Translations under genes and position numbers: made by a program
The notes under the pieces: model-generated
Databases searched by the model: none
What the model saw: only the letters and a program-made list of their open reading frames with translations
Told to the model about the DNA's origin: nothing
Shown: positions 442 through 19,727 of the stretch, piece after piece
How the letters are laid out: the number at the start of each line of letters is the position of its first letter
Numbering within the stretch: position 1 is the stretch's first letter
DNA from: an uncultured Lachnospiraceae bacterium
Lineage (GTDB): Bacteria; Bacillota; Clostridia; Lachnospirales; Lachnospiraceae
Length of the DNA: 43,468 nucleotides
Reading direction: 5' to 3'
Assembly: GCA_947588005.1 (NCBI GenBank)
Contig: CANPYE010000009.1
Coordinates: forward strand, 1-43,468

Positions 442-528
442 ACAGAGTGTTTCCGGAAGGGAGGAACATAACAGAGTGTTTCCAGAACGGAGGAACATAA
501 CAGAATGTTTCCGGAACGGAGGAACATA
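442..528 (+). repeat. three tandem 29-bp repeats, each with a Shine-Dalgarno-like GGAGG
   Basis: Three head-to-tail copies at 442-470, 471-499 and 500-528 differ by only a few bases. Each copy holds GTTTCC followed by GGAGGAACATA. The array ends 15 bases before the galT start, and a fourth partial copy (ACAGGAGGAACA) supplies the probable galT ribosome binding site. The period is not a multiple of three. The array lies in the galT 5' leader and could change copy number by slippage. Confidence 0.9.
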
Positions 529-543
529 ACAGGAGGAACAGGT

Positions 544-2145
544 ATGGTATACGAAGCGATCGCGAAACTGGTACAGTATGGAATTGACGCGGGACTGATT
601 CAGGAGGTGGACCGCATCTATGCGGCGAACCGGATTCTGGAGCGGATGCAGATGGATGAATATGAGGAGCCGCAGGGGGAAGCGGGCAGCGGAACGGAAG
701 TCCGCGGCGGCAGCGCGGCCGGAGCGGGCAGTGCGGAACCGGCAGAGACCAAGCCGGCGGATTCGGCCGGACGTCCCTACTACGCGGATCTGGAGGCCGT
801 ATTATCCGAACTTCTGGACTACGCCGCCGAAACCGGCGTCTTGAAGGAGAACACCGTCACCTACCGCGACCTGTTTGACGCAAAGCTGATGAACTGTCTG
901 ATGCCGATGCCCCACGAGGTGGTGGACACCTTCTGGAACAAGTATGAGCATTCGCCGGAGGAAGCGACGGATTATTTCTATAAGCTGAGCCAAGATTCGG
1001 ATTATATCCGCCGCTACCGCGTCTGCAAAGATATGAAATGGGTGACGAAGACCAAATACGGCGATCTGGATATCACGGTGAACCTGTCCAAGCCGGAGAA
1101 GGATCCGAAGGCGATCGCCGCGGCCAAGCTGGCGAAGCAGAGCGGTTATCCCAAGTGCCTTCTGTGCATGGAGAATGTGGGCTACGCCGGGCGCGTCAAC
1201 CATCCGGCCCGCGACAACCACCGGATCATTCCGGTTACGATTAACGGAAGTCAGTGGGGATTTCAGTATTCGCCCTATGTTTATTACAATGAGCACTGTA
1301 TCGTCTTTAACGGTCAGCATGTGCCGATGAAGATCGAGAAAGCGGCGTTTCAGAAGCTGTTTGATTTTGTGAAGCTGTTCCCCCATTATTTCCTGGGCTC
1401 GAACGCGGATCTGCCCATCGTGGGCGGTTCGATCTTAAGCCACGACCATTTCCAGGGCGGGCATTATACGTTCGCGATGGCGAAGGCGCCCATGGAGCGG
1501 CTGTATACGAAGGCCGGCTATGAGGATGTGGAAGCCGGGATCGTATACTGGCCCCTGTCGGTGCTGCGTCTGCGCGCCGATGATTCGGACCGGCTGGTGG
1601 AGCTGGCGACGGAGATTTTGGCGGCGTGGCGGGTCTATTCGGACGAAGCGGCATTTGTCTTCGCGGAGACGGATGGGGAGCCGCATAATACGATCACGCC
1701 CATCGCCAGAAAGGCCGGCGGCAAATACGAGCTGGATCTGGTGCTGCGCAATAATATTACGACAGAGGAATTTCCGCTGGGCGTCTACCATCCGCACCAG
1801 AACCTGCATCACATCAAGAAAGAGAATATCGGGCTGATCGAGGTCATGGGACTGGCTGTGCTGCCCGCAAGGCTTAGGGACGAGCTGTCGCTTCTGGGCG
1901 AATATATCGTCGCCGGGAAGGACGTGGCTTCGGAGAAATCCATCGCCAAGCACGCGGACTGGGTGAAGGAATTCGCGCCGAAGTACGAGAAGATCACGGC
2001 TGAGAACGTGCAGGAGATTCTGCGGCATGAGGTGGGCCTGGTATTTGAGAAGGTTCTGGAAGACGCAGGCGTTTACAAATGCACCGCCGAGGGCCGGGAG
2101 GCGTTCGAACGGTTCCTGACGTCGGTGGGTTTTGTGCGGCACTGA
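544..2145 (+). CDS. galT: UDP-glucose--hexose-1-phosphate uridylyltransferase, class II (Firmicute type)
   Basis: Leloir-pathway enzyme: exchanges UMP between UDP-glucose and galactose-1-phosphate, giving UDP-galactose and glucose-1-phosphate in the cytoplasm. The 533-residue length and sequence match the class II GalT family. Visible features are a CLLC pair (about C205/C208), RVNHPARDNHRIIPV, and HDHFQGGH at about 300-307, the equivalent of the class I catalytic HPHxQ region. I prefer the ATG at 544 because AGGAGG (531-536) lies 7 bases upstream and the product begins MVYEAIAKLVQYG as usual; an in-frame ATG at 505 would add 13 residues encoded by the tandem repeat. No galK or galE is adjacent. 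UDP-galactose could feed the downstream polysaccharide operon, but that is inference. The gene ends at a strong terminator. Confidence 0.93.
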   Translation: MVYEAIAKLVQYGIDAGLIQEVDRIYAANRILERMQMDEYEEPQGEAGSGTEVRGGSAAGAGSAEPAETKPADSAGRPYYADLEAVLSELLDYAAETGVLKENTVTYRDLFDAKLMNCLMPMPHEVVDTFWNKYEHSPEEATDYFYKLSQDSDYIRRYRVCKDMKWVTKTKYGDLDITVNLSKPEKDPKAIAAAKLAKQSGYPKCLLCMENVGYAGRVNHPARDNHRIIPVTINGSQWGFQYSPYVYYNEHCIVFNGQHVPMKIEKAAFQKLFDFVKLFPHYFLGSNADLPIVGGSILSHDHFQGGHYTFAMAKAPMERLYTKAGYEDVEAGIVYWPLSVLRLRADDSDRLVELATEILAAWRVYSDEAAFVFAETDGEPHNTITPIARKAGGKYELDLVLRNNITTEEFPLGVYHPHQNLHHIKKENIGLIEVMGLAVLPARLRDELSLLGEYIVAGKDVASEKSIAKHADWVKEFAPKYEKITAENVQEILRHEVGLVFEKVLEDAGVYKCTAEGREAFERFLTSVGFVRH

Positions 2146-2213: not shown

Positions 2214-2248
2214 GGGCAGAGTCTTTTTCAGGCTCTGCCCATTTTTAT
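2214..2248 (+). terminator. Rho-independent terminator after galT
   Basis: GGGCAGAG (2214-2221) pairs with CTCTGCCC (2233-2240) across an 11-base loop and is followed by ATTTTTAT. It separates galT from the invertible segment. In the inverted state it would face a promoter pointing left. Confidence 0.85.
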
Positions 2249-2383: not shown

Positions 2384-2416
2384 AGAAAATGTCGTGGAGT
2401 TGTCCACTCTGCGGCA
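2384..2416 (+). repeat. left inverted repeat (recombination site) of the invertible promoter cassette
   Basis: A 33-base sequence matching the reverse complement of 3814-3846 at 31 of 33 positions, with a 21-base identical core (2390-2410 against 3820-3840). The core contains GTGGAGTTGTCCAC, two 5-base inverted arms around an asymmetric 4-base centre. That layout suits a tyrosine-recombinase crossover site whose asymmetric centre sets orientation. Confidence 0.9.
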
Positions 2417-2465
2417 GATAACGGGCGGCGTCTGTCCAATCCGGTTCAGCGTATCTTCTGCATTT

Positions 2466-3650
2466 TTACCACCCGACAGCCATCAGCGCCGACAGTTTCT
2501 GCATATTTCTGCGCTTCAGTTCCATCGTCGGATGCACATACCGGTTCAGCGTAATGTTCACGTTCGCATGCCCAAGTATTTCGCTTAAGCTCTTTACGTC
2601 AAACTCCATTTCCACGCACCGCGTCGCGAAGGTATGCCTGAGCGCATGAAAATTGACGTTTTCTAAGCCCGCTTTCTCCAGTACCTTCTTAAAATGCCGC
2701 TCCATGGTTCTCGGCTCCACGCAGGAGTCTGTCCGTCCGGTCAGAACATAGCCTCTCCGGTTTCCGCGATAGGCGGACAAAAGCATGGCAAGCTCTGCAG
2801 TCATCGGGATCTTTCTGACCGAACTGCGGCTCTTGGGCGGCGTGATGATGATTTTTGTCCTGCGTCCCGCTTCCGCCTTCCCTGTCCCGTCATCTTTTAT
2901 CTGAATCCGCTGCATCGCCTGATGCACATAAATCGTATGCTCGGAAAAGGAAATATCCTCCCATCGGAGGGCGCAGATTTCCCCCAGCCGTAATCCGGTA
3001 AACAGACAGATCAAAAGCCCTATATTCCGATCGTTAAGATTCCCGCGGAGATACCGATACAGTTTCCGGCCTTCTGCCTCTGTCAGAATCCGCATTTCCT
3101 TTGATTCTTTTTTTACGGTAATGGAAGATATGTTAAACGGCATAGCCGCGCCGCAGTCGGCGGCGTAACGGAACACTCTCCGCAGAACCGCCATGACATC
3201 CGAGACAGTCCTGGATGAAAGCCCGCTTTTCTTCTGTCCCCCGACGGAAAGCAGCCTGCTTACGAACAGTTCCACCGTCCCCCGGTTGAGCGTATACCAC
3301 TGCATATTGCCCAGCTCCGGAATGATATAGGTATTCAGCAGGTTCCAGTATTTTATATAGGAAGACTCCTTGATCTGCCACTTCAAACTGTCAAGCCATT
3401 TCTGCGCATACTCCCCAAGCGTAACGGCATTCTGCGCGCGTACATTCCGTATAGCCGCAGTCCGCGCGGCTTCCGCCGGCGGAGCCTGTGCATCTGCCGC
3501 CACGGCCGTCCCCGATATTTCGCGTGTTTCCAACGCTTCCAATCCGCAGGGAACAAGCACATACCGGCCTTCTTCCGACCGCTCAATCACATATAATTCC
3601 GCCCCATGGCCATCCGGATCAAGATAAACCATCTTTCTTTTTTCTGCCAT
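2466..3650 (-). CDS. tyrosine site-specific recombinase/invertase
   Basis: 394 residues from the ATG at 3650, chosen because AAGGAGG sits 8 bases upstream; a longer frame to 3713 lacks such a site. The first 70 residues are unusual (EKRKMVYLDPDGHGAELYVI) and lead into a SAM-like core-binding domain (about 78-175) and a catalytic domain (about 185-390). The full catalytic set is visible: R221 in TGLRLGE, K273, H335 and R338 in HALRHTFATR, H361 in LGHANV and nucleophile Y371 in NRYVHPT. The enzyme cuts and rejoins DNA through a phosphotyrosine. No excisionase, phage or conjugation genes are nearby and the gene sits between inverted repeats, so I infer it inverts its own segment rather than integrating an element. 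The N-terminal 70 residues may be a regulatory or arm-binding region. Confidence 0.92.
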   Translation of the reverse strand: MAEKRKMVYLDPDGHGAELYVIERSEEGRYVLVPCGLEALETREISGTAVAADAQAPPAEAARTAAIRNVRAQNAVTLGEYAQKWLDSLKWQIKESSYIKYWNLLNTYIIPELGNMQWYTLNRGTVELFVSRLLSVGGQKKSGLSSRTVSDVMAVLRRVFRYAADCGAAMPFNISSITVKKESKEMRILTEAEGRKLYRYLRGNLNDRNIGLLICLFTGLRLGEICALRWEDISFSEHTIYVHQAMQRIQIKDDGTGKAEAGRRTKIIITPPKSRSSVRKIPMTAELAMLLSAYRGNRRGYVLTGRTDSCVEPRTMERHFKKVLEKAGLENVNFHALRHTFATRCVEMEFDVKSLSEILGHANVNITLNRYVHPTMELKRRNMQKLSALMAVGW

Positions 3651-3695
3651 CGCATAGTCCTCCTTCTCTGAGCAGAGTTGTGCTGCGAATTTATG

Positions 3696-3701
3696 ATTAT
3701 A
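3696..3701 (-). promoter_or_regulatory. possible -10 box of the recombinase promoter
   Basis: ATTATA on the plus strand reads TATAAT on the minus strand, 45 bases upstream of the recombinase start. No good -35 lies at 17 bases; that position overlaps the first 19-base direct repeat, so activation or repression through the repeats is plausible. The promoter is divergent to the operon promoter at 3755-3783. Confidence 0.4.
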
Positions 3702-3715
3702 ACTATTTACCAATT

Positions 3716-3753
3716 ACTTATAGAGCAAATCCGTACTTATAGAGCAAATCCGT
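3716..3753 (+). repeat. two perfect 19-bp direct repeats between divergent promoters
   Basis: ACTTATAGAGCAAATCCGT occurs at 3716-3734 and again at 3735-3753 with no gap. The second copy ends one base before the -35 box at 3755, and the first overlaps the expected -35 of the minus-strand recombinase promoter. The repeats are positioned as binding sites for a regulator or as arm-type sites for the recombinase itself. Confidence 0.85.
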
Positions 3754-3754
3754 A

Positions 3755-3783
3755 TTGACAAATTCACCCCCCTTTTGTATAAT
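3755..3783 (+). promoter_or_regulatory. consensus sigma-A promoter driving the polysaccharide operon (inside the invertible segment)
   Basis: TTGACA (3755-3760), a 17-base spacer and TATAAT (3778-3783): both hexamers are perfect consensus with ideal spacing. It lies 31 bases inside the right inverted repeat and about 100 bases before the first operon gene at 3887. The transcript should start near 3790 and carry the right repeat in its 5' leader. Being inside the inverted repeats, its direction should depend on the state of the switch. Confidence 0.9.
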
Positions 3784-3813
3784 ACAGATGACATAGCAGC
3801 AGCTCTTTGACGA

Positions 3814-3846
3814 TGCCGTAGAGTGGACAACTCCACGACACTTTCT
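3814..3846 (-). repeat. right inverted repeat (recombination site) of the invertible promoter cassette
   Basis: Reverse-complement partner of 2384-2416 (31 of 33 bases, mismatches at 3819 and 3841). It lies between the operon promoter and its first gene. Transcribed left to right it contains GTGGA-CAAC-TCCAC, which could form a small hairpin in the leader RNA. Confidence 0.9.
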
Positions 3847-3886
3847 GCTAAATTATATACTATATTGCCACGGGAAAGGAGGGTAT

Positions 3887-4354
3887 ATGCCAGAATCGGT
3901 TCTGGAAAATACATCCAATTTTCTGCTCCATACGGAGATGACAGATGACGGCGCGGTGAGAGGCGCGGTCATCCGCGTATCCCGCGGCGCGGCGGTACCC
4001 TTTATTGGTCTTGACCAGGCCTTTCTTGTGATAAATGAATGGCTGGAGGAAGAAAACCCTCTTTCCGAGGACGCTGCCATGCGGACATTTATGGCCGGAC
4101 ACAGAAGAAAAAGCAGGTTTTCTGCTGACGCCGGCCGCGTGGGGACGACCGCCGGACGACGGGATGATTTCTTTGTCCGTGTCATCTTCCGGGAACACAA
4201 CAGCTGGCAGGGGGAAGTCCGCTGGAACGGCCAGCGGGCTTATTTTCGGAGCGCACTGGAGCTGTTATGTCTGCTCAATTCTGCTTTGGCTCCCGGCGCG
4301 GCGAAAGAGAAGGCTGCCGCCGGGGTGATTGGCTTACGGAACAGGCAATCTTAG
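3887..4354 (+). CDS. small protein of unknown function, first gene of the polysaccharide operon
   Basis: 155 residues, soluble-looking, no signal peptide or membrane segment. The start is set by AAGGAGG at 3876-3882, immediately before the ATG. I cannot assign a family. The second half has a compact segment (VRVIFREHNSWQGEVRWNGQ, then RAYFRSALELLCLLNSAL) that looks like one conserved small domain, and the middle has GLDQAFLVINEWLEEE. I have a weak recollection of similar short proteins beside recombinases in Lachnospiraceae, but cannot verify it. It sits directly downstream of the switch, the place occupied by antitermination factors (UpxY, LoaP) in other polysaccharide operons, yet it shows no NusG/KOW-like sequence. 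A regulatory role is possible only by position. Confidence 0.7.
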   Translation: MPESVLENTSNFLLHTEMTDDGAVRGAVIRVSRGAAVPFIGLDQAFLVINEWLEEENPLSEDAAMRTFMAGHRRKSRFSADAGRVGTTAGRRDDFFVRVIFREHNSWQGEVRWNGQRAYFRSALELLCLLNSALAPGAAKEKAAAGVIGLRNRQS

Positions 4355-4404: not shown

Positions 4405-5097
4405 ATGGAATACCGCCGCAACCCGGTGAGCGGAAAGCGCTACGATATCAGTCAGCGACGCGACCATATGCAGGAGGTTTATTCAAAGAAAAGCCGGATT
4501 TATAAGATAACAAAGCGTTTTTTTGACATTACGCTGTCCTGTGCGGCGTTAATTGTCCTGTCTCCGCTTCTGGCGGCGACGTCAGCGGCGATTCTGCTGG
4601 ACGACGGCGGCCCGGTGATTTTCTCGCAGGACAGAGCCGGCAAGGATATGAAACCCTTCCGAATCTATAAGTTCCGCAGCATGTGCAGGGACGCTGATAA
4701 ACAGCTCCCGGAAATGCTCAAATACAACGAGCAGACCGGACATGCCTTTAAGATTAAAGACGACCCGCGCGTCACCCGCGTGGGCAGGTTCATCCGCCGC
4801 TGGTCCATCGACGAGCTGCCGCAGCTCGTGAACATCATAAAGGGGGACATGAGCATCGTCGGCCCCCGTCCGATCCTGCTCTTCCAGATGGAGGAGAGCA
4901 ACGACTACGAAAGGCAGCGCCTGGCGGTCCAGCCGGGCCTTACCTGTTACTGGCAGATCGGCGGCCGCTCCGATATCAAGTGGGACGAGTGGATAGAACT
5001 GGACCTGGATTACATCGAGGATATGAGCTTCTGGACGGATTTGGTGATGATAATAAAAACAATCCCCGACGTGGTTCGGGGGGGTGGGGCTGAGTGA
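4405..5097 (+). CDS. polyprenyl-phosphate phosphosugar transferase (bacterial sugar transferase), initiating enzyme
   Basis: Transfers a sugar-1-phosphate from a UDP-sugar to undecaprenyl phosphate, the first step of the repeat unit, at the inner face of the membrane. 230 residues match the small monotopic PGT class (PglC/WcaJ C-terminal-like). Visible parts are a basic N-terminus, one hydrophobic re-entrant segment (about 40-66), FRIYKFRSM (about 85-93), WSIDELPQLVNIIKGDMS and VGPRP (about 133-155), then GGRSDIKWDEWIELDLDYI. The sugar cannot be deduced. AGAGGTGAT just upstream serves as ribosome binding site. The stop overlaps the next gene's GTG. As the committed step, this gene is the natural target for control by the upstream switch. 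Confidence 0.93.
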   Translation: MEYRRNPVSGKRYDISQRRDHMQEVYSKKSRIYKITKRFFDITLSCAALIVLSPLLAATSAAILLDDGGPVIFSQDRAGKDMKPFRIYKFRSMCRDADKQLPEMLKYNEQTGHAFKIKDDPRVTRVGRFIRRWSIDELPQLVNIIKGDMSIVGPRPILLFQMEESNDYERQRLAVQPGLTCYWQIGGRSDIKWDEWIELDLDYIEDMSFWTDLVMIIKTIPDVVRGGGAE

Positions 5098-6305
5098 GTG
5101 GAATGAAGGAAGCGATTGAAATCATTGCCCGTAAGACCTTGATAGGAAGTTACTCTTGCTTAAGCTCTCTGAGGAGAAAATCAATTAGGAACAAGAGCAA
5201 GTCCATAGTTATTATTATGAGCGGTGTGCTTGGAGATTGTGTTGTTTTATTAGGAACTTTGCGTGAACTGATAAAAATGTATAGTCCGCAAAAAGGGTAC
5301 CAGATAACGATTGTTTGTTGTACTGGCATGCGCACGTTTTTAAGCGATAATTTGAGTGAGGAGATTCGGCTCATATCTTGTGATGTAAAAGGGGCAGATT
5401 GGCCGTCTGTTGCGGAATTCAAAAATATGGCAGCTTCATTGAGAAATATGTACTTTGATAAATGCATAGTACTGATGCTTCATGGATGGGCAGACTATCT
5501 TGCATTATGTGTAAATGCCGATCAGAAAATAAAGATGTGTTCGAAATATCAATATGATAATAAAGTCCTTATTTCAAAATTTGTTTGTGATCATATGTAC
5601 AATAATTTTTTGAAATATGAAAATGAACTGTTTCTTGCGAAAGCAGGAGCCCGATTGATACATAGTTTGAATCATACTGATTATTCTACCGAAAAAGAAA
5701 TGATTAAGTATCGACAAGGGGTGAATACACAATACAAAGACTATATCATTGTTGCGCCGATGGCGAGTTCATCCTGGCGCAATCTTTCGTCAGAGCAGAC
5801 AATTGCGATTACTGAATATATACTGGATAGAACAAATGCATATGTCTTAATTACAGGTGAGATTTCACATGCGGCATTTATTGAATCCATAATCGATTTC
5901 ATAAATAGTGAAAGAGTAGTGAATTATGCCGGAAAAACAAATCTGGAGGAATTTATTCAATTGATTAAGGGGTCAAAAATGGTGATAGGGTCCGATAGCG
6001 GACATATTCATTTAGCCGCGGCACTGGATATACCGTCTGTCTGCCTGCCGTGGAAAGGAGTAATGGGATTGTTTTTCCCGTATGATTATGACAAAAAAAG
6101 TGCGAATGACCCGATCTGTGCTTTTAGTGATATACCGTGCAAAAACTGTATGCATCATGGAAAGAAACCTGGCAATCGCAATCGTCAATGTACAAAAAGG
6201 ATTCGTAATGGTGAAAACGCCTTATGCGTAGAGACGATAGATTTAAAAAGAGTGTTCCAAAGTATTGACGATGTCTTAGTCAGGCTTGAAGGAGATTCTC
6301 AATAA
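5094..6305 (+). CDS. glycosyltransferase family 9 (heptosyltransferase-like)
   Basis: 403 residues. An N-terminal GVLGDCVVLLGTL loop matches the GT9 acceptor-domain start (GDxxxxxP type), and a C-terminal GSDSGHIHLAAAL (about 299-311) matches the nucleotide-sugar binding GSDSGxxHLAA signature of ADP-heptose:LPS heptosyltransferases. A Cys-rich tail (PCKNCMHHG, RQCTKR, LCVET) is often seen in this family. I infer transfer of a heptose or similar sugar onto the lipid-linked unit, because an HldE-type heptose enzyme lies four genes downstream. The GTG at 5094 overlaps the previous stop; an ATG at 5103 is an alternative. From here the sequence becomes clearly AT-rich compared with its flanks, suggesting acquisition by transfer. 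Confidence 0.85.
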   Translation: MSGMKEAIEIIARKTLIGSYSCLSSLRRKSIRNKSKSIVIIMSGVLGDCVVLLGTLRELIKMYSPQKGYQITIVCCTGMRTFLSDNLSEEIRLISCDVKGADWPSVAEFKNMAASLRNMYFDKCIVLMLHGWADYLALCVNADQKIKMCSKYQYDNKVLISKFVCDHMYNNFLKYENELFLAKAGARLIHSLNHTDYSTEKEMIKYRQGVNTQYKDYIIVAPMASSSWRNLSSEQTIAITEYILDRTNAYVLITGEISHAAFIESIIDFINSERVVNYAGKTNLEEFIQLIKGSKMVIGSDSGHIHLAAALDIPSVCLPWKGVMGLFFPYDYDKKSANDPICAFSDIPCKNCMHHGKKPGNRNRQCTKRIRNGENALCVETIDLKRVFQSIDDVLVRLEGDSQ

Positions 6306-7513
6306 TGAAGGAGAAAAATGTCATTTGTTTGTCATACATAAAGCTATTTATATTAATCGTTCCGCTTTTAGGACCGGAAGGATTAAAAACTTTATCACCG
6401 GTGACTTATTGTGTGTTTTTTAAAATATTTAAATTATTGGATCTGAGTTTTATTATATTTTTATTTATTAGGAAATATTTAAAGCATAAAAAAGTATCAC
6501 CGTTTCTGGTGCTTTTTTTGGTAATGATAGGAATTAATGTTGGATTAACGGTTCTTTATCATGGAGCAGTATACGAATGTTTGAATGTTTATATATGTTC
6601 TGTAGGAATGATAATGCTGTTAAATCTGTATGAGGAGGATATTTACAAAGTTTTAGATGTTGCTTTTTTTTACTTATCGTTTCTATTGATTGCAAATTTA
6701 TTTTTTATATTATTATTTCCCAAAGGCATGTACCATAGTGGGGGACCAGAAAGTTATACTTTAAACTGGCTGTTGGGTTACAAAAGCTCGCTTCAATATT
6801 ATGCGTTGCCGGCATATTGTCTGGGCATGATTAGAATAAAGAATAATATTGGAAAACTGGTTGAAAGCGCAGTTATAATTGTATGTCATTTGTCGGCCGT
6901 GCTTGCCGATAATAGAATGCTTATCGTTGGACTATTGCTGTTGGATATTATTTTTTTAACGAGAATGAATCAATTATATAACATCTTTAATGCTGCGTTT
7001 TATGGAGTTGCTGCTGTTGGAGCTAACATAACGCTGTTATTATTTCCTTATAATAATATACACATTATATCCTTTATTCTGACAGATGTATTAAATAAGA
7101 ACTTGGAAAATAGCAGAGGTCGAATGTGGAATGTCACAATGGAATGGATAAAAAAGTCATGGATGATTGGATATGGAAATACACAGAGCAGCATACGTTA
7201 TGAGATGTATGGCAGATGGCCGCATTCACATAATCAAATCCTGGAACTGCTGTTCCAGGGAGGTGTTGTCCTGCTTATTGCGTATATTATTTTGAATATA
7301 TATGTGATATGGAATCTGATGAAGCATAGGAGCAGAGCAACCGCTCAGGTGCTTGCTGCCTGCATTTTTTCTCTTTATATAATGACCTGTGTAGAAATAT
7401 TTACCCGATATATCGGGACCATGTTATGGTTATTATTTGCTTTATCGGAATATATACCTCAGATAGAAGAGCAGTATGATAGGTTGAGGTCAACATTAAG
7501 AAAGAAAACATAG
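6305..7513 (+). CDS. Wzy-type polysaccharide polymerase (O-antigen ligase/polymerase family)
   Basis: 402 residues, almost entirely hydrophobic with about ten membrane spans, and one larger external loop holding SRGRMWNVTMEWIKKSW, then GYGN and HSHNQILELLFQGG (about 266-320). That RxxxW...HxHN pattern is typical of O-antigen polymerases. Expected role: joining flipped repeat units on the outer membrane face. The ATG overlaps the GT9 stop (TAATG) with AAGGAG about 10 bases upstream, so the genes are translationally coupled. Wzy proteins are specific to their glycan. Confidence 0.85.
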   Translation: MKEKNVICLSYIKLFILIVPLLGPEGLKTLSPVTYCVFFKIFKLLDLSFIIFLFIRKYLKHKKVSPFLVLFLVMIGINVGLTVLYHGAVYECLNVYICSVGMIMLLNLYEEDIYKVLDVAFFYLSFLLIANLFFILLFPKGMYHSGGPESYTLNWLLGYKSSLQYYALPAYCLGMIRIKNNIGKLVESAVIIVCHLSAVLADNRMLIVGLLLLDIIFLTRMNQLYNIFNAAFYGVAAVGANITLLLFPYNNIHIISFILTDVLNKNLENSRGRMWNVTMEWIKKSWMIGYGNTQSSIRYEMYGRWPHSHNQILELLFQGGVVLLIAYIILNIYVIWNLMKHRSRATAQVLAACIFSLYIMTCVEIFTRYIGTMLWLLFALSEYIPQIEEQYDRLRSTLRKKT

Positions 7514-7518
7514 AACAA

Positions 7519-8952
7519 ATGGGCAGGATGGATAGTTTAAATAAAAATACTATCATTTGGAATTATATTGGTACTTTTTTTAGTATGGGGCTCCAGTTCC
7601 TGTTATTGCCTTTTCTTTTGTTTTTTCTTACAGCGGAAGAATTGGGTCTATGGTATGTTATGCTGTCCTTTTCCAATCTTTCTGGTATCTTCAGCTTTGG
7701 TTTTACTCCTGCGTTTGCCAGAAACGTAGCATACTGTTGGAACGGAGCCAAACAACTGAAAAAGAGCGGGAAGGAACGTGATGTAGGAAAGGACGAAACG
7801 ATAGATTTCGTTCTGATGAAAAAGATACTTATTACAAGCCGGTTTCTGTACTTCCTTTTGGCGAGCCTGGGAGTAGGATTTCTTGCGGTGTTTGGAACCA
7901 TGCACATATGGAAGATTGCCGCAGACGTCTTGAATAAAACCGTCGTAGTCAGCTGGATTTTATTCCTGATATCGGTTTTTCTCAATATATATTACGGATA
8001 TTACTCTTCCTATTTGATCGGTATCGGTAAGGTGAAGGAGGCAAACCAGATTATAGCAATAGCTGCTTTGGGGCGCCTTATTGTCACGGCAGCTATGATG
8101 TTTTTGGGTTATGGTCTTATGGGCGCGGCATCCGGATATCTGATCCAGGGAATACTCTGTAGGGTGCTGAGCAGCCGGGAGTTTTACAGGGATAAAAGGC
8201 TGAAGGACGGATTCGCTGAATTCAGGATGACGAGAATTCACCTTCGTGAAATAAAAGAGTGCTTTGAGATTGTTTGGTACAATGCATGGAAGGACGGAGT
8301 CGTGTCGGTAGCAGAGTATTTTTCTACCCAGATAAATACAATCGTTTGTTCCAGCTTTTTAACCTTGGGAGAAACTGCTATGTTTTCTCTGATTGTGCAG
8401 CTTGCCGCAGCAGTAGGAAAGATATCCAGATCAATACATAACGCTTACACCCCTGTTTTCCAGCGGGCGTATATTACCGGAGATTGGAGAACAGCCAGAG
8501 AATCGCAGGCATTTTGTATCTTTGCGTATACAATAGTTTATGTGGCAGGCATTCTAACGCTTCAAGTAATAGGGATTCCGCTTATTCGGATTTTTAAGCC
8601 GGGATTGCAGATTGACAGATATGCATTGTCTGGTTATGCGATATATCAGTTTATGTTGTCTTATCGGAATTGTTACGGAGCCTATTTATCATGTACAAAC
8701 AGGCTTTGGTATTGGAAAAGCTATCTGTTAACCAGTATGGCTACAGTCGCTGCCTATACTGCGGCTTTTGTACTAATCGGGCCCAGTGTATGGTGGGTAA
8801 TTGTTATCTCAATTATAGGAGAAGGTCTTTATAACTTTTGGAAATGGCCGGGATTGGTCAATCAGGAGCTTCAGCTTACCTGGAGAAATATCATGGAAAC
8901 AGGCTTTCGGGCAACGCAAAAGCTGCTGACAGGGAAGGAAAGGAAGTCATGA
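7519..8952 (+). CDS. Wzx-type flippase (MOP/oligosaccharidyl-lipid exporter family)
   Basis: 477 residues with 12-14 predicted membrane spans. The N-terminus NTIIWNYIGTFFSMGLQFLL and the LTAEELGLWYVMLSF segment are typical of polysaccharide flippases in the MATE/MOP superfamily. It would move the undecaprenyl-linked repeat unit across the membrane for Wzy. It lies 5 bases after wzy and overlaps the following gene by ATGA. An ATG at 7528 is an alternative start; neither start has a strong ribosome binding site. The Wzx/Wzy pair defines the pathway as Wzy-dependent rather than ABC- or synthase-dependent. Confidence 0.88.
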   Translation: MGRMDSLNKNTIIWNYIGTFFSMGLQFLLLPFLLFFLTAEELGLWYVMLSFSNLSGIFSFGFTPAFARNVAYCWNGAKQLKKSGKERDVGKDETIDFVLMKKILITSRFLYFLLASLGVGFLAVFGTMHIWKIAADVLNKTVVVSWILFLISVFLNIYYGYYSSYLIGIGKVKEANQIIAIAALGRLIVTAAMMFLGYGLMGAASGYLIQGILCRVLSSREFYRDKRLKDGFAEFRMTRIHLREIKECFEIVWYNAWKDGVVSVAEYFSTQINTIVCSSFLTLGETAMFSLIVQLAAAVGKISRSIHNAYTPVFQRAYITGDWRTARESQAFCIFAYTIVYVAGILTLQVIGIPLIRIFKPGLQIDRYALSGYAIYQFMLSYRNCYGAYLSCTNRLWYWKSYLLTSMATVAAYTAAFVLIGPSVWWVIVISIIGEGLYNFWKWPGLVNQELQLTWRNIMETGFRATQKLLTGKERKS

Positions 8953-10397
8953 CAGGAAAGAAGATATTAGTAGCGGGAGATGTGATGCTGGATATCTACC
9001 GTTTCGGAAAGGTAGAGCGTATTTCGCCTGAAGCGCCGGTGCCTGTGCTGAGAATAGAGAATGCCAAAGAGAGGCGTGTACCTGGCGGGGCGGCAAACGT
9101 AGCTATGAATCTGAAAGCGGCTGGTATGGAAGTATCTTTATTTTCCATTGTCGGAACAGATGAAAATGCCCAGATTCTTTGCCGCCACATATTAGAGAAT
9201 GGTATAGACATGGACTATTCTTATCGCGACAGAAAGCGGCTGACCACAACAAAGCTCCGGTATATGGGACAAAATAATCAGCAGATTTTACGGGTGGATT
9301 CAGAAGAAAACTTAGAGGTCCCTTTTTCACTTTTAAAAAAAGAAGTCAGCAAGTTGGATAATAATGCTGAGCAGTATTCTGTGTTTGTTCTTTCAGATTA
9401 TGAAAAAGGGTTTTTATCATATGACGTAACCCAGCATCTTATTAAGCTGGCTGAAAGTAAAGATATTCCTGTTTTCATAGATATAAAAGGAGATTATTAC
9501 GAAAAATATCGGGGGGCAACTTTGTTAAAAGCGAACCGAGCGGAATTAAGCAGAATTACTCAAAAAAACGTAAATACAGAGGAGCAGCTGTTGAATGCGG
9601 CGATGGACTTATGTCGTCGGGCGGAATGCCATTATGTTCTTATCACTTTGGGCGCAGATGGTATGATGCTGGCCGACGCAAATGGACTGTTGAAAAAAGT
9701 CAGGAGCACAGCGCGTGAGGTTTATGATGTTACCGGAGCGGGAGATACAGCTTTGGCCTATTTGTCGGTAGGATTGGTGAATGGGCTGGATATCCTGAAA
9801 ACGGTAGAGATAGCGAATGACGCGTCGGGTATTAAGGTCGCGAAACTGGGAACTGACATCGTTTATCCGGATGAAGTCAAGATGCTGTCCGGCGCGTATC
9901 CAAAGAGACTTAATATGTATCAGCCGGGAGGATTCATATGTTTGCGGGAGCTGAAAAAGAGGCATAAAAAAATCGTATTTACAAATGGCTGTTTTGATAT
10001 TCTTCACGCGGGACACGTGAATTATCTGAACAGGGCAAAAGCCCTGGGGGATATTCTTGTTGTCGGGCTTAACAGTGATGAATCGATAAAAAGGCTGAAG
10101 GGGAACGGAAGGCCAATCAATTGTTTAGAAGATAGAGCTGCGATGCTGACAGCATTATCTTCTGTTGACTATGTCGTGCCCTTTGAAGAAGATACGCCTC
10201 AAAAATTGATTGAGATGATAGAACCAGATGTATTAGTAAAGGGCGGGGATTATGAGATTGAGAAGATAGTGGGTTATGATTATGTAATACAACATGGCGG
10301 GCAGGTATATATCCTTCCTTTCTTAGAAGGAAAATCAACAACGGAAACGATCGGCAGGTTGCGTAAAGAGGGATTTCCCATTGCAATGTATCCATGA
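8949..10397 (+). CDS. hldE: bifunctional D-glycero-beta-D-manno-heptose-7-phosphate kinase / heptose-1-phosphate adenylyltransferase
   Basis: 482 residues from the ATG at 8949 (overlaps the flippase stop; AAGGAAG upstream). Residues 1-320 form a PfkB/ribokinase-type kinase: VAGDVMLDIY, PGGAANVAMN, and the GAGD anion hole with its catalytic Asp at 263-266. Residues about 340-482 form a nucleotidyltransferase: GCFDILHAGH (347-356) and VKGGDY. This is the HldE/RfaE domain order, and the length is close to the Gram-negative enzyme. It phosphorylates heptose-7-P and adenylylates heptose-1-P toward ADP-heptose. Partner genes gmhA, gmhB and hldD are absent from the window and must be elsewhere, or the product is used as ADP-D,D-heptose. 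With the GT9 gene it points to heptose in the glycan, which is noteworthy for a Gram-positive. Confidence 0.9.
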   Translation: MTGKKILVAGDVMLDIYRFGKVERISPEAPVPVLRIENAKERRVPGGAANVAMNLKAAGMEVSLFSIVGTDENAQILCRHILENGIDMDYSYRDRKRLTTTKLRYMGQNNQQILRVDSEENLEVPFSLLKKEVSKLDNNAEQYSVFVLSDYEKGFLSYDVTQHLIKLAESKDIPVFIDIKGDYYEKYRGATLLKANRAELSRITQKNVNTEEQLLNAAMDLCRRAECHYVLITLGADGMMLADANGLLKKVRSTAREVYDVTGAGDTALAYLSVGLVNGLDILKTVEIANDASGIKVAKLGTDIVYPDEVKMLSGAYPKRLNMYQPGGFICLRELKKRHKKIVFTNGCFDILHAGHVNYLNRAKALGDILVVGLNSDESIKRLKGNGRPINCLEDRAAMLTALSSVDYVVPFEEDTPQKLIEMIEPDVLVKGGDYEIEKIVGYDYVIQHGGQVYILPFLEGKSTTETIGRLRKEGFPIAMYP

Positions 10398-10515
10398 GAT
10401 TGTATCAGAGTATAAACCGTATGTCCGGTATCATACCAAAGGTGTCAGTGAAACGGCCATAGCAAGACGGTTTCAATGTCATTATTTGAGAGAAAGTAAA
10501 GAAACAATATGAGAA

Positions 10516-11811
10516 ATGAAAAAAAAAGATTTCTTTGTATCTGAAATACAGATAGAGAGAGCGGACCGCATTTTTTATAAAAAATTTCGCAAATTTTGCA
10601 TTGCTAACCTGTCATGGCAGAACGATATTTATTATCGTTTTGGCTATGAGACATTTGGGATTATTTTGTATGGTTTTTGTGAATGGCTGATAGAAGATTT
10701 AAAAAAGCAGGGAATATCACAAATTTTATTTTTTTCGAGGGACGGATATATTATGAAGGAGGCATTTGAAAGGATGCCGAATCATGAAAGGTTTGATGCA
10801 CAGTATATATATGTTTCACGGAGAAGCCTGCGAGTTCCGCTGCTTTGGAAAAAAAACCGGGCCAGTATTGATGAGATATGTCCAACGAGATACATCTCTT
10901 TAGCGGATCTTTTAGTTTCGTTAGGTTTGGAGCCGATAGAATATGCAAAGCTTGCCGAAAAATATCATTATACCTTGCAGACAGTTGTAAAAGACAGCGA
11001 TATAGAAAAAAATGAATTATTGATAAATTTTCTGGATGAGATATGGGGAGATGTAACGGCTAATTCAAAAGAGGAATACGAAAAGCTTAAATTATATCTT
11101 GAACGGTTTGACCTGGCTGAACGGATTGCTGTTGTGGATATTGGCTGGAGGGGATCCATGCAGTATTTCCTTGGGAAAATGCTTGAATCCATGGGAAGGA
11201 GAGGACATTTGCGCGGGTATTATATTACTCTTTCCAGCAGTATGAAAAAAGGATTGGATATGCATGGCTATTTGCAGGGCGTTGACGGAAACAGCAAGGG
11301 GTGCGATTTGTTACGGGGATATGTAGGGCTGATCGAGACATTATTTTTGAAACCAGATGGTTCTGTGAGAAATTATAAGATAGAAAATGGAGAAGCTGTC
11401 CCAGAACTTTTTACATGTGAATATATTGAAAAGGATGGAAGTTATTCCAAAGAAATACGGGCGGTACAGAATGTGCAGAAAGGGGCATTACAGTTTATAG
11501 AGGACTATATATCAGATGGTATGGATAAAAACGATAACTTTTCACCAAAAACTGCTTTTGCAAACTTAAGTCATTTTTCAAATCATCCTACATTGAAAAA
11601 TCTTGAAATGTTTGCGGATTTTAAGTTTTATAATGGGACAACTACATATTTGGCAAAAGCAGGGCGGCTGAGGCAGTATGTGCTGCATCCAGGAAAATTA
11701 AAAGAAGATTTTTACGGATGCAGGTGGCGCATAGGATTTATGAAGAATTTATTCAAGATTCCCTTTCCATACTATTGGCTGTTTCAGCTTCTTATGAAAA
11801 TGACGTTATAG
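10516..11811 (+). CDS. COG5610-type HAD-like protein, second-domain homologue
   Basis: 431 residues, no membrane segments. Recognisable segments are FGYETFGIILYGFCEWL (about 42-58), QILFFSRDGYIMKEAFE (about 69-85), YVSRRSLRVPLL (about 99-110) and VVDIGWRGSMQYFLG (about 206-220). These recur in the C-terminal half of large HAD-superfamily proteins (COG5610) in polysaccharide and glycosyltransferase loci. The SRDGY motif resembles a degenerate HAD motif I. Catalytic activity is uncertain. The following gene encodes what is normally the N-terminal HAD domain of the same family, so the two products probably act together. The start at 10516 has no clear ribosome binding site and follows a 118-base gap. 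Confidence 0.65.
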   Translation: MKKKDFFVSEIQIERADRIFYKKFRKFCIANLSWQNDIYYRFGYETFGIILYGFCEWLIEDLKKQGISQILFFSRDGYIMKEAFERMPNHERFDAQYIYVSRRSLRVPLLWKKNRASIDEICPTRYISLADLLVSLGLEPIEYAKLAEKYHYTLQTVVKDSDIEKNELLINFLDEIWGDVTANSKEEYEKLKLYLERFDLAERIAVVDIGWRGSMQYFLGKMLESMGRRGHLRGYYITLSSSMKKGLDMHGYLQGVDGNSKGCDLLRGYVGLIETLFLKPDGSVRNYKIENGEAVPELFTCEYIEKDGSYSKEIRAVQNVQKGALQFIEDYISDGMDKNDNFSPKTAFANLSHFSNHPTLKNLEMFADFKFYNGTTTYLAKAGRLRQYVLHPGKLKEDFYGCRWRIGFMKNLFKIPFPYYWLFQLLMKMTL

Positions 11812-11841
11812 ATATTAAGGTTGATGAAATAAGTGATTTGG

Positions 11842-12534
11842 ATGAAAGAAAGCTTAAAAATAATTTTAAGAATACTATTTGGAACCGATCAAAAAAGGTT
11901 AATTGATATTATCCAAAAAAAGGATTATAAAATTATTTCATTTGATATTTTTGATACATTGATAGTGAGAAAGGTTGGAAAACCAGAGGCGCTGTTTCAA
12001 TATGTACAAAGAATGATTAGCGACATAGACAGTAATTTTACAGAACACAGGAAAGAAGCGGAAAGAAATATAAGAAATCATTTAGAGGTTGAGGAGGTAA
12101 CGCTGTCAGATATTTATCATGAGTATCAAAAAATGACCGCTTGTTCAAGAGAAACGGCTGATTTTCTCATGAATTTAGAGAAAAAGACAGAAGTTGAAAT
12201 CTGTTTTGGTAACAAGGATGTAATGGAGTTGTTCCAACAATGCATTGAAAGAAAGATAAAAGTAGTCATCACATCTGATATGTATTTGGATAAAGAGATT
12301 ATAAAGACGATATTAGCAAATGCGGGTTGTAATGAATATCAAAAGTTATATTTGTCCAGTAATGAAAATGCCTCCAAAAGAACAGGAAATCTGTTCCGGT
12401 TAATGTTAAGGGAGCAGGGGGTTGAAGCAAATGAAGTATTACATATTGGAGACAATCCGTTTTCTGATTATTTGATGCCTAGATTAATAGGAATTAGAGC
12501 AATTTTGTTAAAAAATAGTTTTCACAGATGTTGA
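11842..12534 (+). CDS. HAD-superfamily hydrolase domain protein (COG5610-like)
   Basis: 230 residues from the ATG at 11842; a GTG at 11833 would add three. It has the full HAD set: motif I SFDIFDTLIVR (about 33-43), motif II TSDMYLDKE, motif III Lys in SKRTGNLF and motif IV HIGDNPFSD. HAD enzymes use the motif I Asp for phosphoryl transfer, so this is likely a phosphatase or phosphotransferase of an activated sugar, polyol or lipid intermediate; the substrate cannot be deduced. In COG5610 proteins I know, this domain precedes the domain found in the previous gene. Here they are separate genes in reverse order. The 3' end overlaps the upstream end of the LicD reading frame. Confidence 0.75.
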   Translation: MKESLKIILRILFGTDQKRLIDIIQKKDYKIISFDIFDTLIVRKVGKPEALFQYVQRMISDIDSNFTEHRKEAERNIRNHLEVEEVTLSDIYHEYQKMTACSRETADFLMNLEKKTEVEICFGNKDVMELFQQCIERKIKVVITSDMYLDKEIIKTILANAGCNEYQKLYLSSNENASKRTGNLFRLMLREQGVEANEVLHIGDNPFSDYLMPRLIGIRAILLKNSFHRC

Positions 12535-12554
12535 GAAATGGGAGAGTGTCTGAT

Positions 12555-13364
12555 ATGCCTTCTGAATTGGGAACGAAAGATTTACATTCCAAGATGTTGA
12601 TTTTACTGGAAAAGTTCCATGAAATTTGTATAAAAAATGGAATCAAATATTCTCTCCATGGAGGGACTTTGCTGGGGGCCATAAGAGAAAAAGGTTTTAT
12701 TCCATGGGATGATGATGCAGATGTTACTATGGTGCGCACTGAATATGAGAAACTGTGTAAAGTTATGAAATCGCAGGATCCAGATGGGAGGTTTTTATTT
12801 TTTGACCATTTAGATTTATTGCTGCCGCGTCTTTGCCTGGTGGAAAAAGGACAACCGAGAGTATGGATTGATATATTCGTTTATGATTATATCGCCCAAT
12901 ATAAGTTGGAACAGAAGATTAAAAACATTGTTATACTTTGGCTTAAAGGGTGTTCAAAAACTTCTGAAGAATGGAGAATCACAAAGACGAGAGCGAATTA
13001 TTCGAAATGGGAGTCCAGACTATATTATATTTTGTGTCTGCCGAGTCATATATTGCCTATACGATATATGCGACATTTACACAACTTTTGCTGCCAGCAT
13101 TTGTTTTGCGGAAATAAAAAAATGATACACCGAAGCAATGATCAATATATAGGAATGGTTAAAGTGTTACCGGCCCATGTAATGAAACGATATATGCTTG
13201 TTCCGTTTGAGAATATAAAGCTGATGATATCCCGCGACTATAAAGATATGTTAGTGTCCATGTATGGAGAAGATTATTTGATTCCTAAAAAGTATGCTGA
13301 AGATGAATTTGCCGCGCATGATATTTGTCGCAGAATGTTAGAAAAGAAGATTGCCAGTAATTGA
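12555..13364 (+). CDS. LicD/FKRP-family phosphotransferase
   Basis: 269 residues from the ATG at 12555, supported by GGGAGAG 8 bases upstream; upstream in-frame starts (12528) would overlap the HAD gene. The LicD core is plain: YSLHGGTLLGAIREKGFIPW followed by DDDAD (about 32-56), where the DDDxD acidic motif binds metal and nucleotide. Family members transfer phosphocholine or phospho-polyols from CDP donors to glycans. The next gene encodes a CDP-polyol-type cytidylyltransferase, so I infer the glycan is decorated with a phospho-polyol or related group made from that CDP donor. Choline is less likely, since no licA/licC-like genes are present. Confidence 0.88.
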   Translation: MPSELGTKDLHSKMLILLEKFHEICIKNGIKYSLHGGTLLGAIREKGFIPWDDDADVTMVRTEYEKLCKVMKSQDPDGRFLFFDHLDLLLPRLCLVEKGQPRVWIDIFVYDYIAQYKLEQKIKNIVILWLKGCSKTSEEWRITKTRANYSKWESRLYYILCLPSHILPIRYMRHLHNFCCQHLFCGNKKMIHRSNDQYIGMVKVLPAHVMKRYMLVPFENIKLMISRDYKDMLVSMYGEDYLIPKKYAEDEFAAHDICRRMLEKKIASN

Positions 13365-13428
13365 ATGGGGGAAGACATACCGTCTGAAAAGCTTTATTAA
13401 TTTAGAAACAAGCAGGAGAGTAATGACC

Positions 13429-14145
13429 ATGAACATCGCGGTTATCTTCGCAGGCGGCTCCGGTCAGCGAATGCACAATCAAGATAAACCGAAACAGTTT
13501 CTTATCATGGATAAAAAGCCGATTATTGTACATACAGCAGAGATATTCAATGAGCATCCGGAAATTGACGGAATCATTATTGTGTGCATCAGGGATTGGA
13601 TTCCTTATATGGAAAGTCTGGTGCGGCAGTACGGCTTACACAAGGTGAAAAAGATAGTTCCGGGCGGCATTACAGGTCAGATGTCGATATATTGCGGTTT
13701 GAAGGCGGCAGCTGAAGTATACGGAAAAGAGAATGTAATAACTCTGATCCATGATGGCGTCCGGCCATTGATTGATCAGAAAATCATTGCTGATAATATA
13801 GCCGCCGTCCGGGCTCACGGTTCCGCGATCACCTGTGCGCCGACCACCGAAACCTTTATCCTGGTCAATGATGATTATGAGCTCTCCGATGTACCGGACC
13901 GCTCTCTTTCATGGGTGGCGAAGGCGCCGCAGAGCTTCTGGCTGAAGGATGTGCTTGAAGTACAGGAAAAAGCGATATCCGAAGGACATACAGATGTGAT
14001 TGATACCTGTACTCTGATGTGGATGTATGGACGGAAACTTCATCTGATAAAGGGATCAGGCTATAATATAAAGATTACGACGCCGGAGGATTTTCAGATA
14101 TTTCAGGCGCTGTATGAATCAAAGGAGACCTCATGTGGGAAATGA
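13429..14145 (+). CDS. IspD/TarI-family cytidylyltransferase (probable CDP-polyol synthesis)
   Basis: 238 residues from the ATG at 13429, 8 bases after AGGAGAG; an ATG at 13423 is too close to it. IspD/TarI signatures: FAGGSGQRM (about 7-15) and K20-P-K22 for CTP binding, then HDGVRPL and a C-terminal KITTPEDF. The family uses CTP with methylerythritol-4-P, ribitol-5-P or similar. Its position between LicD and an SDR gene, rather than with isoprenoid genes, favours a TarI-like role supplying a CDP-polyol to LicD. Sequence alone cannot separate the substrates, so no symbol is given. It overlaps the next gene by 13 bases. Confidence 0.85.
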   Translation: MNIAVIFAGGSGQRMHNQDKPKQFLIMDKKPIIVHTAEIFNEHPEIDGIIIVCIRDWIPYMESLVRQYGLHKVKKIVPGGITGQMSIYCGLKAAAEVYGKENVITLIHDGVRPLIDQKIIADNIAAVRAHGSAITCAPTTETFILVNDDYELSDVPDRSLSWVAKAPQSFWLKDVLEVQEKAISEGHTDVIDTCTLMWMYGRKLHLIKGSGYNIKITTPEDFQIFQALYESKETSCGK

Positions 14146-15164
14146 GTCGGGAATATGAAGAGGATTTGGAGAGAATCGGTTCGGCTGATTTCATACCTTG
14201 GGAGAAACTGCGCGGTAAGACTGTCTTTATTACAGGGGCCACCGGGCTGATAGGGTTTAACCTGGTGAATGGTCTGCTTTATGCGAATCGGAAGAAAGCC
14301 CTGGGAATGAATATCCTCGCGCTGGTGCGTGATGAGGCACGAGCGAAGGAACGGTTCGCTGCGGTTGTCCGTGCGAAAGAACCGATTCAATGGATTGTCG
14401 GAACCGTGGAAGAACTTCCCGAAGTTGCGCAGTCTGTTGATTATATAATCCACTGTGCAGGCCAAACAGCCAGCAGGGCTTTTGTCAAACGGCCGGTGGA
14501 GACGATTCGTACTTCCGTATTAGGGACATTACAGACCTTGGAATTGGCGCGGCGGAAACATGCGGCAGGCTTTGTTTACGCGTCCAGCATGGAGGTATAT
14601 GGTCATCCCCCTAAAGGGCACAAAGTTTCTGAGACAGATGTATGTGGACTGTCTCCATTGGCAGTGCGGAACAGCTATCCCGTCAGTAAACTGCAGTGCG
14701 AGAGTTTGTGCTGTGCTTATGCGTCTGAGTGCGGAGTTCCGGCTATGATTGCCCGGCTGGCCCAAACTTTCGGCCCGGGCGTGCATCCGGATGATAACCG
14801 TATTTTCGCTGAATTCGGTCACTGTATTCAGGGAAAACAGGATATCGTGCTGCGAACGAAGGGGGAAACGGAACGGAGCTACCTGTATACTGCAGATGCG
14901 GTCACGGCGTTACTGACGATTTTACTGAAAGGACAGCCAGGAAAGGCGTACAATGCAGCGGATGAGAATACTTACTGTTCTATCGCGGAAATGGCGCAAA
15001 AGGTGGCGGCTGCTAACCATATCAGGGTGCGGTTTGAGCTGAGAAAAGAAGATGAATGCGGATATCCCGAACCGGTTTATATGAATTTGGACACTTCAAG
15101 TTTGCGGATGTTGGGATGGGAAATAAAAAAGACGATTCAATGGAAAGGATGCTTTGCTGTATAG
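14133..15164 (+). CDS. NAD-dependent epimerase/dehydratase (extended SDR)
   Basis: 343 residues. Rossmann motif GATGLIG (35-41), ASSMEVYG, and the catalytic pair Y182 and K186 in SYPVSK identify an active extended SDR. AAAGGAGA lies 5 bases before the ATG, inside the cytidylyltransferase gene, so the two are coupled. Similar SDR partners of IspD-like enzymes in capsule loci act on sugar or polyol precursors; here it may reduce or epimerise the group passed to LicD (inference). The C-terminus is odd: after MLGWEIKK it ends abruptly at WKGCFAV, while the +1 frame continues with MERML-like sequence, so a small 3' frameshift after a run of A residues is possible. It is the last polysaccharide gene before the RiPP genes. 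Confidence 0.85.
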   Translation: MWEMSREYEEDLERIGSADFIPWEKLRGKTVFITGATGLIGFNLVNGLLYANRKKALGMNILALVRDEARAKERFAAVVRAKEPIQWIVGTVEELPEVAQSVDYIIHCAGQTASRAFVKRPVETIRTSVLGTLQTLELARRKHAAGFVYASSMEVYGHPPKGHKVSETDVCGLSPLAVRNSYPVSKLQCESLCCAYASECGVPAMIARLAQTFGPGVHPDDNRIFAEFGHCIQGKQDIVLRTKGETERSYLYTADAVTALLTILLKGQPGKAYNAADENTYCSIAEMAQKVAAANHIRVRFELRKEDECGYPEPVYMNLDTSSLRMLGWEIKKTIQWKGCFAV

Positions 15165-15229
15165 TATGATCGGATGATGCGGGATATTTCAGGATCCGAT
15201 TGCTTGTGAAATACAGTTCTGTTAAGAAT

Positions 15230-15976
15230 ATGGAAAAACATGTTTATCGGTTTGCGGGCCACACGGTAGAAATATGCTCGCTGTATCCGCAGATACACAC
15301 AATGTGCAGCGAGTATCGGACGGAGAATCACCCGGAATTGGTATTGTCCATCAGCCAGAGCGACATTGACTGTGAGCGCAGGCGATTCGAGGAAAAGGAT
15401 CCTGCCGAAGATGCGCAGGGCCGGCATCCCAGTGACAAATATCTGGAGACACTGGCGGTTTACCGCAAGCTTGCCGAGAGCCTGATCGAGTACAACACCT
15501 TACTGTTTCATGGATCCGCCGTGGCGGTGGACGGCGCAGGTTATCTTTTTGCCGCCAAAAGCGGTACAGGAAAATCCACCCATGCCCGTCTGTGGCGGGA
15601 GCTTTTGGGCGACCGGGCCGTTATGGTAAACGACGACAAACCGCTCTTATCCGTTTCTGAAACGGGCGCTGTCGTCTGGGGGACGCCGTGGGATGGGAAG
15701 CATCACTTAAACAGCAATATTTCCGCACCGCTGCGGGCAATTTGTCTTCTGGAACGAGGGGAAGAAAACAACATGGAACCCATTTCTGCGAAAGAGGCGT
15801 GGCCGACGCTTTGGAGGCAGAGTTATCGGCCAACGGAACCGGAAAAGCTGAAGCGGGTATTGGCTATGACGGATATCCTCTCAAAGCACACCCGTCTCTA
15901 CCGGCTGCGCTGTACCCCGGATATTCAGGCGGCCCGCATTGCTTATGAAACTATGAGTGAAGGAGGAGCACTATGA
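15230..15976 (+). CDS. HPr-kinase-like P-loop kinase of a RiPP locus
   Basis: 248 residues from the ATG at 15230; TTG 15200 and GTG 15206 are alternatives and no start has a strong ribosome binding site. The core reads LLFHGSAVAVDGAGYLFAAK followed by SGTGKST (about 91-117), a Walker A motif in the HprK/PckA-like setting, then NDDKPLL (about 134-140) and WGTPWDGKH. This is the small HprK-like family found with PqqD-type proteins in RiPP loci. A relative in the paeninodin lasso cluster phosphorylates the precursor's C-terminal Ser. Here a role in modifying or tailoring the peptide is inferred. The stop overlaps the start of the PqqD gene. Confidence 0.82.
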   Translation: MEKHVYRFAGHTVEICSLYPQIHTMCSEYRTENHPELVLSISQSDIDCERRRFEEKDPAEDAQGRHPSDKYLETLAVYRKLAESLIEYNTLLFHGSAVAVDGAGYLFAAKSGTGKSTHARLWRELLGDRAVMVNDDKPLLSVSETGAVVWGTPWDGKHHLNSNISAPLRAICLLERGEENNMEPISAKEAWPTLWRQSYRPTEPEKLKRVLAMTDILSKHTRLYRLRCTPDIQAARIAYETMSEGGAL

Positions 15977-16227
15977 AACTGAAAGACACATTTATCACCT
16001 ATGCCGCCAGCGGAGAGCACACTATGGTGTCAACGGAGGGCTTTTCCGGCGTGGTCCGGAGCAATAAGACCGCCGCGTTCATCATTGAGTCGCTGAAAGA
16101 GCCTACAACAATGGAGCAAATCGTGGAGGCAATGGAGGCAAAGTACGATGCGCCGCGGGAGGTCATTGAAAAGGACGTGGCGAAAGTGCTGGAAGAGCTG
16201 CGTTCCATCGGAGCCATCGAAGAGTGA
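15973..16227 (+). CDS. PqqD-family RiPP recognition element protein
   Basis: 84 residues, the usual size of a stand-alone PqqD/RRE protein: three short N-terminal strands (TFITYAASGEHTMVS), a VRSNKTAAFIIESL helix and a winged-helix-like second half ending KVLEELRSIGAIEE. Such proteins bind a RiPP leader peptide and present it to modifying enzymes. A GGAGGAGC site precedes the ATG, and the ATGA overlap with the kinase gene and the GTGA overlap with the peptidase gene show tight coupling. The precursor at 16747 has a YxxP leader motif of the kind bound by lasso-type recognition elements. Confidence 0.88.
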   Translation: MKLKDTFITYAASGEHTMVSTEGFSGVVRSNKTAAFIIESLKEPTTMEQIVEAMEAKYDAPREVIEKDVAKVLEELRSIGAIEE

Positions 16228-16667: not shown

Positions 16668-16746
16668 CAAAACGACTGAATCGGGGGGGAGTAACCCGTC
16701 CGTTCAGAATATAAATCAAGAATTCTAACTGAAGGAGGAAAAACCC

Positions 16747-16863: not shown

Positions 16864-16961
16864 AAACCATTGTCATCAAAAGGCGCTGAGGTCCCAAGCG
16901 TCTAAAGCCGGTTTCATATAGTTGTTTGTAGACCGGAGCTACCAGTGAGAGGAGGAATCAT

Positions 16962-18320: not shown

Positions 18321-18330
18321 CTGGCGGTTT
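18301..18330 (+). promoter_or_regulatory. hairpin overlapping the stop of radical SAM copy 1
   Basis: Bases 18301-18313 pair with 18318-18330 (13 pairs including one G-U) around a 4-base loop; the TGA stop at 18318-18320 lies in the right arm. It is followed by AAGTTATAAGGAGG, not a T-run, so it is not a classic terminator. It may stabilise, process or attenuate the mRNA between copies 1 and 2. Confidence 0.6.
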
Positions 18331-18351
18331 AAGTTATAAGGAGGAAACGAT

Positions 18352-19725: not shown

Positions 19726-19727
19726 AT

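Follow-up and report, generated by a model that had tools for sequence, protein, structure and literature searches.

The best-known cases of promoter inversion come from Bacteroides and C. difficile, and the Hin segment of Salmonella also contains an outward promoter. To our knowledge, the enzyme–site pairs of invertons in most Clostridia are unassigned. In the portions of the sources available to us, Hin is a serine recombinase with a Fis-bound enhancer (PMC3798978), and its gene is located within the invertible segment (PMC5903667). The same portion of PMC5903667 describes RecV of C. difficile, one tyrosine recombinase needed for several invertible-segment switches (flg, cwpV), and Mpi, a serine-type enzyme that works on many scattered regions. 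Bacteroides capsule promoters invert ahead of glycan genes, often with a gene for the NusG-like UpxY beside the inverton, according to the available parts of two further reports (PMC11892184, PMC8748976). The available text of the former also lists inverton group 139, paired with invertase group 35, in which 32 of 33 invertons are from Clostridia, a tyrosine-type recombinase lies nearby, and the inverted-repeat motif is reported as new; two examples have ~200–230 nt between the arms (PMC11892184).

Here we describe a 1.46-kb segment that can probably switch a cell-surface sugar operon on or off. It lies in a 43,468-nt stretch of DNA from an uncultured Lachnospiraceae bacterium, the whole of which we call the window; the host assembly, a draft, consists of 232 contigs and is 81% complete. 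The features of the locus are as follows.

505..2145, plus strand: galT, toward which the promoter would point when OFF
2214..2240, plus strand: terminator-like stem after galT
2384..2416, plus strand: distal inverton arm, identical core 2390–2410, same site class in relatives
2469..3650, minus strand: tyrosine recombinase, 394 aa, inside the arms (Pfam Phage_integrase, 3.7e-29, and Phage_int_SAM_3)
3715..3752, no strand: two 19-nt direct repeats in perfect tandem, between recombinase start and promoter, just inside the segment
3755..3783, plus strand: outward promoter TTGACA-17-TATAAT, 12/12 hexamer matches, 17-nt spacer
3814..3846, minus strand: proximal inverton arm, identical core 3820–3840
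3887..4354, plus strand: operon gene 1 (P0001), 155 aa, no Pfam or NCBIfam match, relatives recur beside these invertons
4405..25246, plus strand: surface glycan operon, from a sugar transferase to LytR_cpsA_psr (Pfam)

The initial annotation had proposed that inverted arms here enclose one tyrosine recombinase and a perfect-consensus promoter directed out through the right repeat into the glycan operon, and each element was recovered. A repeat search returned the two arms, 33 nt each, inverted, matching at 31/33 positions and separated by 1,397 nt. Their central 21 nt are identical and occur at only these two places in the window (≤3 mismatches), and the same search found none in 100 dinucleotide shuffles of it. 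The enclosed recombinase gene is intact. The promoter points through the right arm toward the operon, whose first gene begins 103 nt past the −10 element, at 3887. The segment thus has the anatomy of a promoter inverton, inverted repeats around an outward promoter. Inversion maps position x to 6230−x, as had been calculated, and the assembly captures the ON orientation that had been claimed, with the promoter pointing into the operon. The 19-nt repeats could serve as a regulator or accessory site. Just 5′ of galT, about three tandem units of roughly 30 nt each are visible by eye (440–540).

Including the P0001 gene, the whole promoter-driven operon spans 3887–25246. Its Pfam content comprises Bac_transf, GT9, Wzy_C, Polysacc_synt, PfkB/cytidylyltransferase, HAD and LicD, followed by IspD-like, epimerase, three radical-SAM proteins, NTP_transf_5, an ABC transporter and LytR_cpsA_psr. 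The three radical-SAM proteins are consecutive and, with the NTP_transf_5 protein, occupy 16962–22264. The P0001 family, recurrent near these switches, consists of two beta3-alpha repeats; a Pfam search gave no match and structure comparison no clear one. In the window, the P0001 gene precedes a sugar transferase, unlike relatives (in L046, L047, L048 and L053) that precede open frames of ~1,700–2,200 aa, some cut by the end of the stretch. Both frames tested (n=2) carry SpaA with FctA or DUF5979 domains. In another genome, G023, a short inverton precedes a sugar transferase 93% identical in DNA to that of the window.

Our preferred reading, which we hold with high confidence, is a self-contained promoter inverton whose internal recombinase flips the segment together with its own gene, switching the glycan operon ON or OFF. 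The recombinase encoded inside the segment would bind two head-to-head end sites, each with a variable core of about 5–7 nt flanked by two near-palindromic arms. Strand exchange at these sites would then flip the segment, recombinase gene included. In the orientation found in the window the promoter would drive the glycan operon (ON); in the flipped orientation it would fire toward galT, leaving the operon without a promoter (OFF). We infer that the promoter at 3755–3783 is active, that operon expression follows orientation, and that the internal recombinase does the flipping.

One half of the condition that had been set for refuting the reading was the absence of any related locus with the segment in the opposite direction; we looked for such a locus and found it in a sister species. 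This orthologous locus (L045, G025:C29) has the same galT and sugar-transferase flanks, collinear with the window at 1669–2416 and 3814–5098 bar small indels, and the interval 2387–3846 is reversed at 91.6% identity. The two mismatches between the window arms lie on opposite sides of the core. In G025 the arms are mosaic, with the outer base kept with the flank and the inner base moved with the segment, which places the strand exchange within the 21-nt core. The reversed orthologue and the crossover inside the core show, at the level of genome comparison, that this locus inverts. At a second chromosomal site with conserved flanks, four genomes divide 2:2, with L042 and L060 in one orientation and L049 and L058 in the other.

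Alignment of the end sites gave the consensus T(G/T)TCGYRGAGT-N5-ACTCYRCGA(C/A)A. The N5 differs between loci and is identical within each of the 57 pairs compared (44 long and 13 short, two long pairs, L150 and L155, having been dropped for weak arms). The five central positions carry only 0.01–0.67 bits across loci, whereas the arms are conserved across pairs and left/right mismatches number 0/57 at each of 14 central positions; the pairs were found by matching, which favours identity, and mismatches still appear further out. Strand exchange by tyrosine recombinases typically needs an identical overlap sequence, and identity within pairs despite variation between loci is the pattern expected from that need. 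Outside the genus, hits to the exact pattern are hardly above background (6/148 family genomes versus 4/148 in the control).

Within the genus, the pattern occurs 89 times in 15/26 genomes, and the control, the same pattern read backwards, at one place in one genome. Since the pattern misses the window's own two sites, 89 is an undercount. Contig ends come within 60 nt of eight of these 89 sites, where rounded genome sizes and contig counts predict 0.77. In all four cases tested, those with a known alternative continuation (G002:C225, G001:C12, G025:C169 and the pair G011:C22/C171), the distance from the contig end to the final base common to both arms is exactly 77 nt. G002:C225 is a short inverton without recombinase and G025:C169 belongs to a distant branch (43% identity). 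Three further contigs (G011:C162, G008:C7, G019:C10) begin at a site with a similar look; the test set covers contigs with a known partner. Contigs of the tested bins carry SPAdes-type names (NODE), and 77 is a usual k of SPAdes. A repeat of 26–28 nt alone should not fork a 77-mer graph, but molecules in mixed orientation would, so that ends at 77 nt are expected from both orientations. The assembly ends therefore support the presence of both orientations in the sequenced DNA of single samples, in relatives of the window.

The window switch, noted at first as a single case, belongs to a family that occurs in many Clostridia and that has short counterparts with no recombinase. Comparing the recombinase with the 26 genus genomes gave 31 matches at E ≤ 1e-100, spread over 13 of them, and both arms surround the gene in 26/31. 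Two others (L054, L068) have one arm and a contig end on the other side, and three of the 31 (L061, L063, L036) have no arms; family members hence need not be self-contained. The wider set was the best 80 of 572 loci, of which the first 12 repeat genus loci and the other 68 are L093–L160, including two contig-edge pieces from a genus genome (L120, L130). Among these 68 from the best 80 of 572, a spanning repeat was found in 50, compared with 0/204 shuffled controls. Inspection by eye showed that L109 in this group of 50 is another repeat and that L135 has a different arm sequence; for L106 and L127 another repeat ranks first and the site-like pair comes second. The remaining 18 had no spanning repeat at threshold, 11 with less than 400 nt of room on one side and 7 with more than 400 nt on both. 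Of 46 long segments, the window's included, 43 have an outward promoter (≥10/12 matches) at 36–68 nt from the outer edge, the exceptions being L107, L132 and L133; in the genus segments the distance is 48–64 nt in 27/27.

Six loci of the best 80 of 572 (L095–L100) are copies of one locus, on DNA common to named isolates of different genera, in which the family member and its arms lie beside an erm(B) gene. The erm(B) protein was identified in L095, which the other five match at the DNA level (99.5–100%). In L095 the outward promoter is directed away from erm(B), an orientation common to the other five. The invertons L102, L119 and L111 adjoin a type VII secretion EssC gene, an NRPS-like gene and a protein-kinase gene, respectively.

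Within 1.5 kb of 41 of the 59 invertons there is a LoaP-like or P0001-like gene oriented away from the segment, with weak target or state calls at L123 and L150 (low similarity) and L191 (promoter). LoaP is an antiterminator; the LoaP-like label is based on two tested proteins with NCBIfam scores of 121.7 and 110.6 bits, both below the cut-off of 125. The promoter points toward that gene in 8/41 assemblies and away from it in 33/41. In the genus alone, 6/35 are ON (binomial P = 6e-5 versus one half, with orthologous loci not independent).

The short set comprises 13 pairs of 215–570 nt with the same sites, leaving out two further pairs in G020; ten of the 13 have a promoter matching at 11/12 positions. 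Most of these short segments share homology with the promoter end of the long ones over their final ~92 nt. Only L191 has a family recombinase in its fetched stretch, these stretches being short at contig ends; L196 shares a contig with the arm-less recombinase L061, ~7.6 kb away. Short and long forms occupy the same chromosomal site in different genomes, L182 (G023) versus L069 (G008) and L188 (G008) versus L065 (G021). In G008, which is 98% complete, three short invertons accompany a single family recombinase (E ≤ 1e-25) that itself lies inside a long inverton, an arrangement that points to action in trans; a recombinase more distant than the family members may also act on these short invertons. 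G019 combines an arm-less recombinase, its only one, with two or more short invertons. The three short invertons of G008 (C27, C55 and C57; L188, L189 and L190) are 92–95% alike with different cores, as if copied around. Taken together, the genomes suggest that autonomous and non-autonomous invertons coexist. We tentatively consider, at somewhat less than even odds, a system like that of transposons and MITEs, in which full invertons would supply recombinase and short ones would be flipped in trans, the 5-nt core would be the address that pairs ends and keeps co-resident switches apart, and one enzyme family would run mostly-OFF surface loci.

Trans action bears on the window as well. The segment might be invertible yet flipped by another recombinase, the internal gene being a passenger or having lost its role. 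The existence of recombinase-less short invertons with these sites makes trans action likely within the family, the window's genome encodes three recombinase paralogues at 68–72% identity, and another, more distant recombinase could be the one acting. However, the gene sits within arms in 26/31 genus relatives, has no internal stop in any of the 31, and retains R221, H335, R338, H361 and Y371, which we take to be the catalytic residues, invariant in 15/15 aligned sequences; we regard an outside enzyme as an unlikely explanation here. That the window's species carries a relic frozen ON is very improbable. The left flipped junction had 0 matches (≤2 mismatches) in the window's own genome assembly, which holds one orientation only, but recombinase gene, promoter and core are all intact and the sister species is in the opposite state.

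The recombinase scores 32.3 bits against NF007370 (tyrosine-type DNA invertase; presumably the FimB/FimE-type invertases), below the curated cut-off of 221. Its nearest solved relatives are the Int proteins 6en0 (3.5e-25), 6emy and 6emz, presumably all Tn1549 integrase. These relatives, and the family member on DNA common to several genera (L095–L100), would fit a small mobile element of integrase plus ends, its repeats serving integration and excision rather than a switch. Against this, orthologues have stayed in place and are related to each other by inversion, with mosaic arms, only one gene lies inside, and the outward promoter keeps its place near the edge in all 27 genus segments, making such an element very improbable. 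Compared with a Tn916/Tn1549-type conjugative element, the segment shares the relationship to Tn1549 Int; no transfer genes lie between the ends, and one gene fills the 1.46-kb segment.

Tn1549 Int, presumably the protein in 6en0, the closest solved sequence relative, is the integrase of a conjugative transposon and tolerates a heterologous overlap, whereas the central bases match in 57/57 inverton pairs here. From the part of the literature available to us, RecV shares with the window enzyme the tyrosine chemistry, the Clostridia and the invertible segments, but it acts on several switches and is not described as lying inside them, as the window recombinase does. Likewise, the Bacteroides Mpi and local-invertase systems, compared by layout, resemble the window switch in promoter inversion before glycan genes and in the LoaP-like genes near many relatives; Mpi differs, as described there, in being serine-type and serving many regions, the window enzyme being tyrosine-type. 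Group 139 may be the same family in short form, compared by description rather than motif, and an internal recombinase, present in the window segment, is absent from the portion of its description available to us (PMC11892184).

Our literature search, whose coverage probably missed relevant papers, turned up neither a self-contained promoter inverton with a tyrosine recombinase nor a description of full and short forms occurring as pairs. In many genera the sequence gives enzyme, site and target together, which makes phase-variable loci of this kind predictable and testable, and recombinase-less copies with matching cores offer a handle on how many switches share one chemistry without scrambling the chromosome. 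The closest likeness in gene placement is to Hin and its H segment, where the recombinase gene is likewise inside; the window enzyme differs in being a tyrosine rather than a serine recombinase, by its Phage_integrase domain, and in its site. With a recombinase inside its own segment known for the serine enzyme Hin, the tyrosine-type self-contained form would, judging from sequence, be a variant on that theme.
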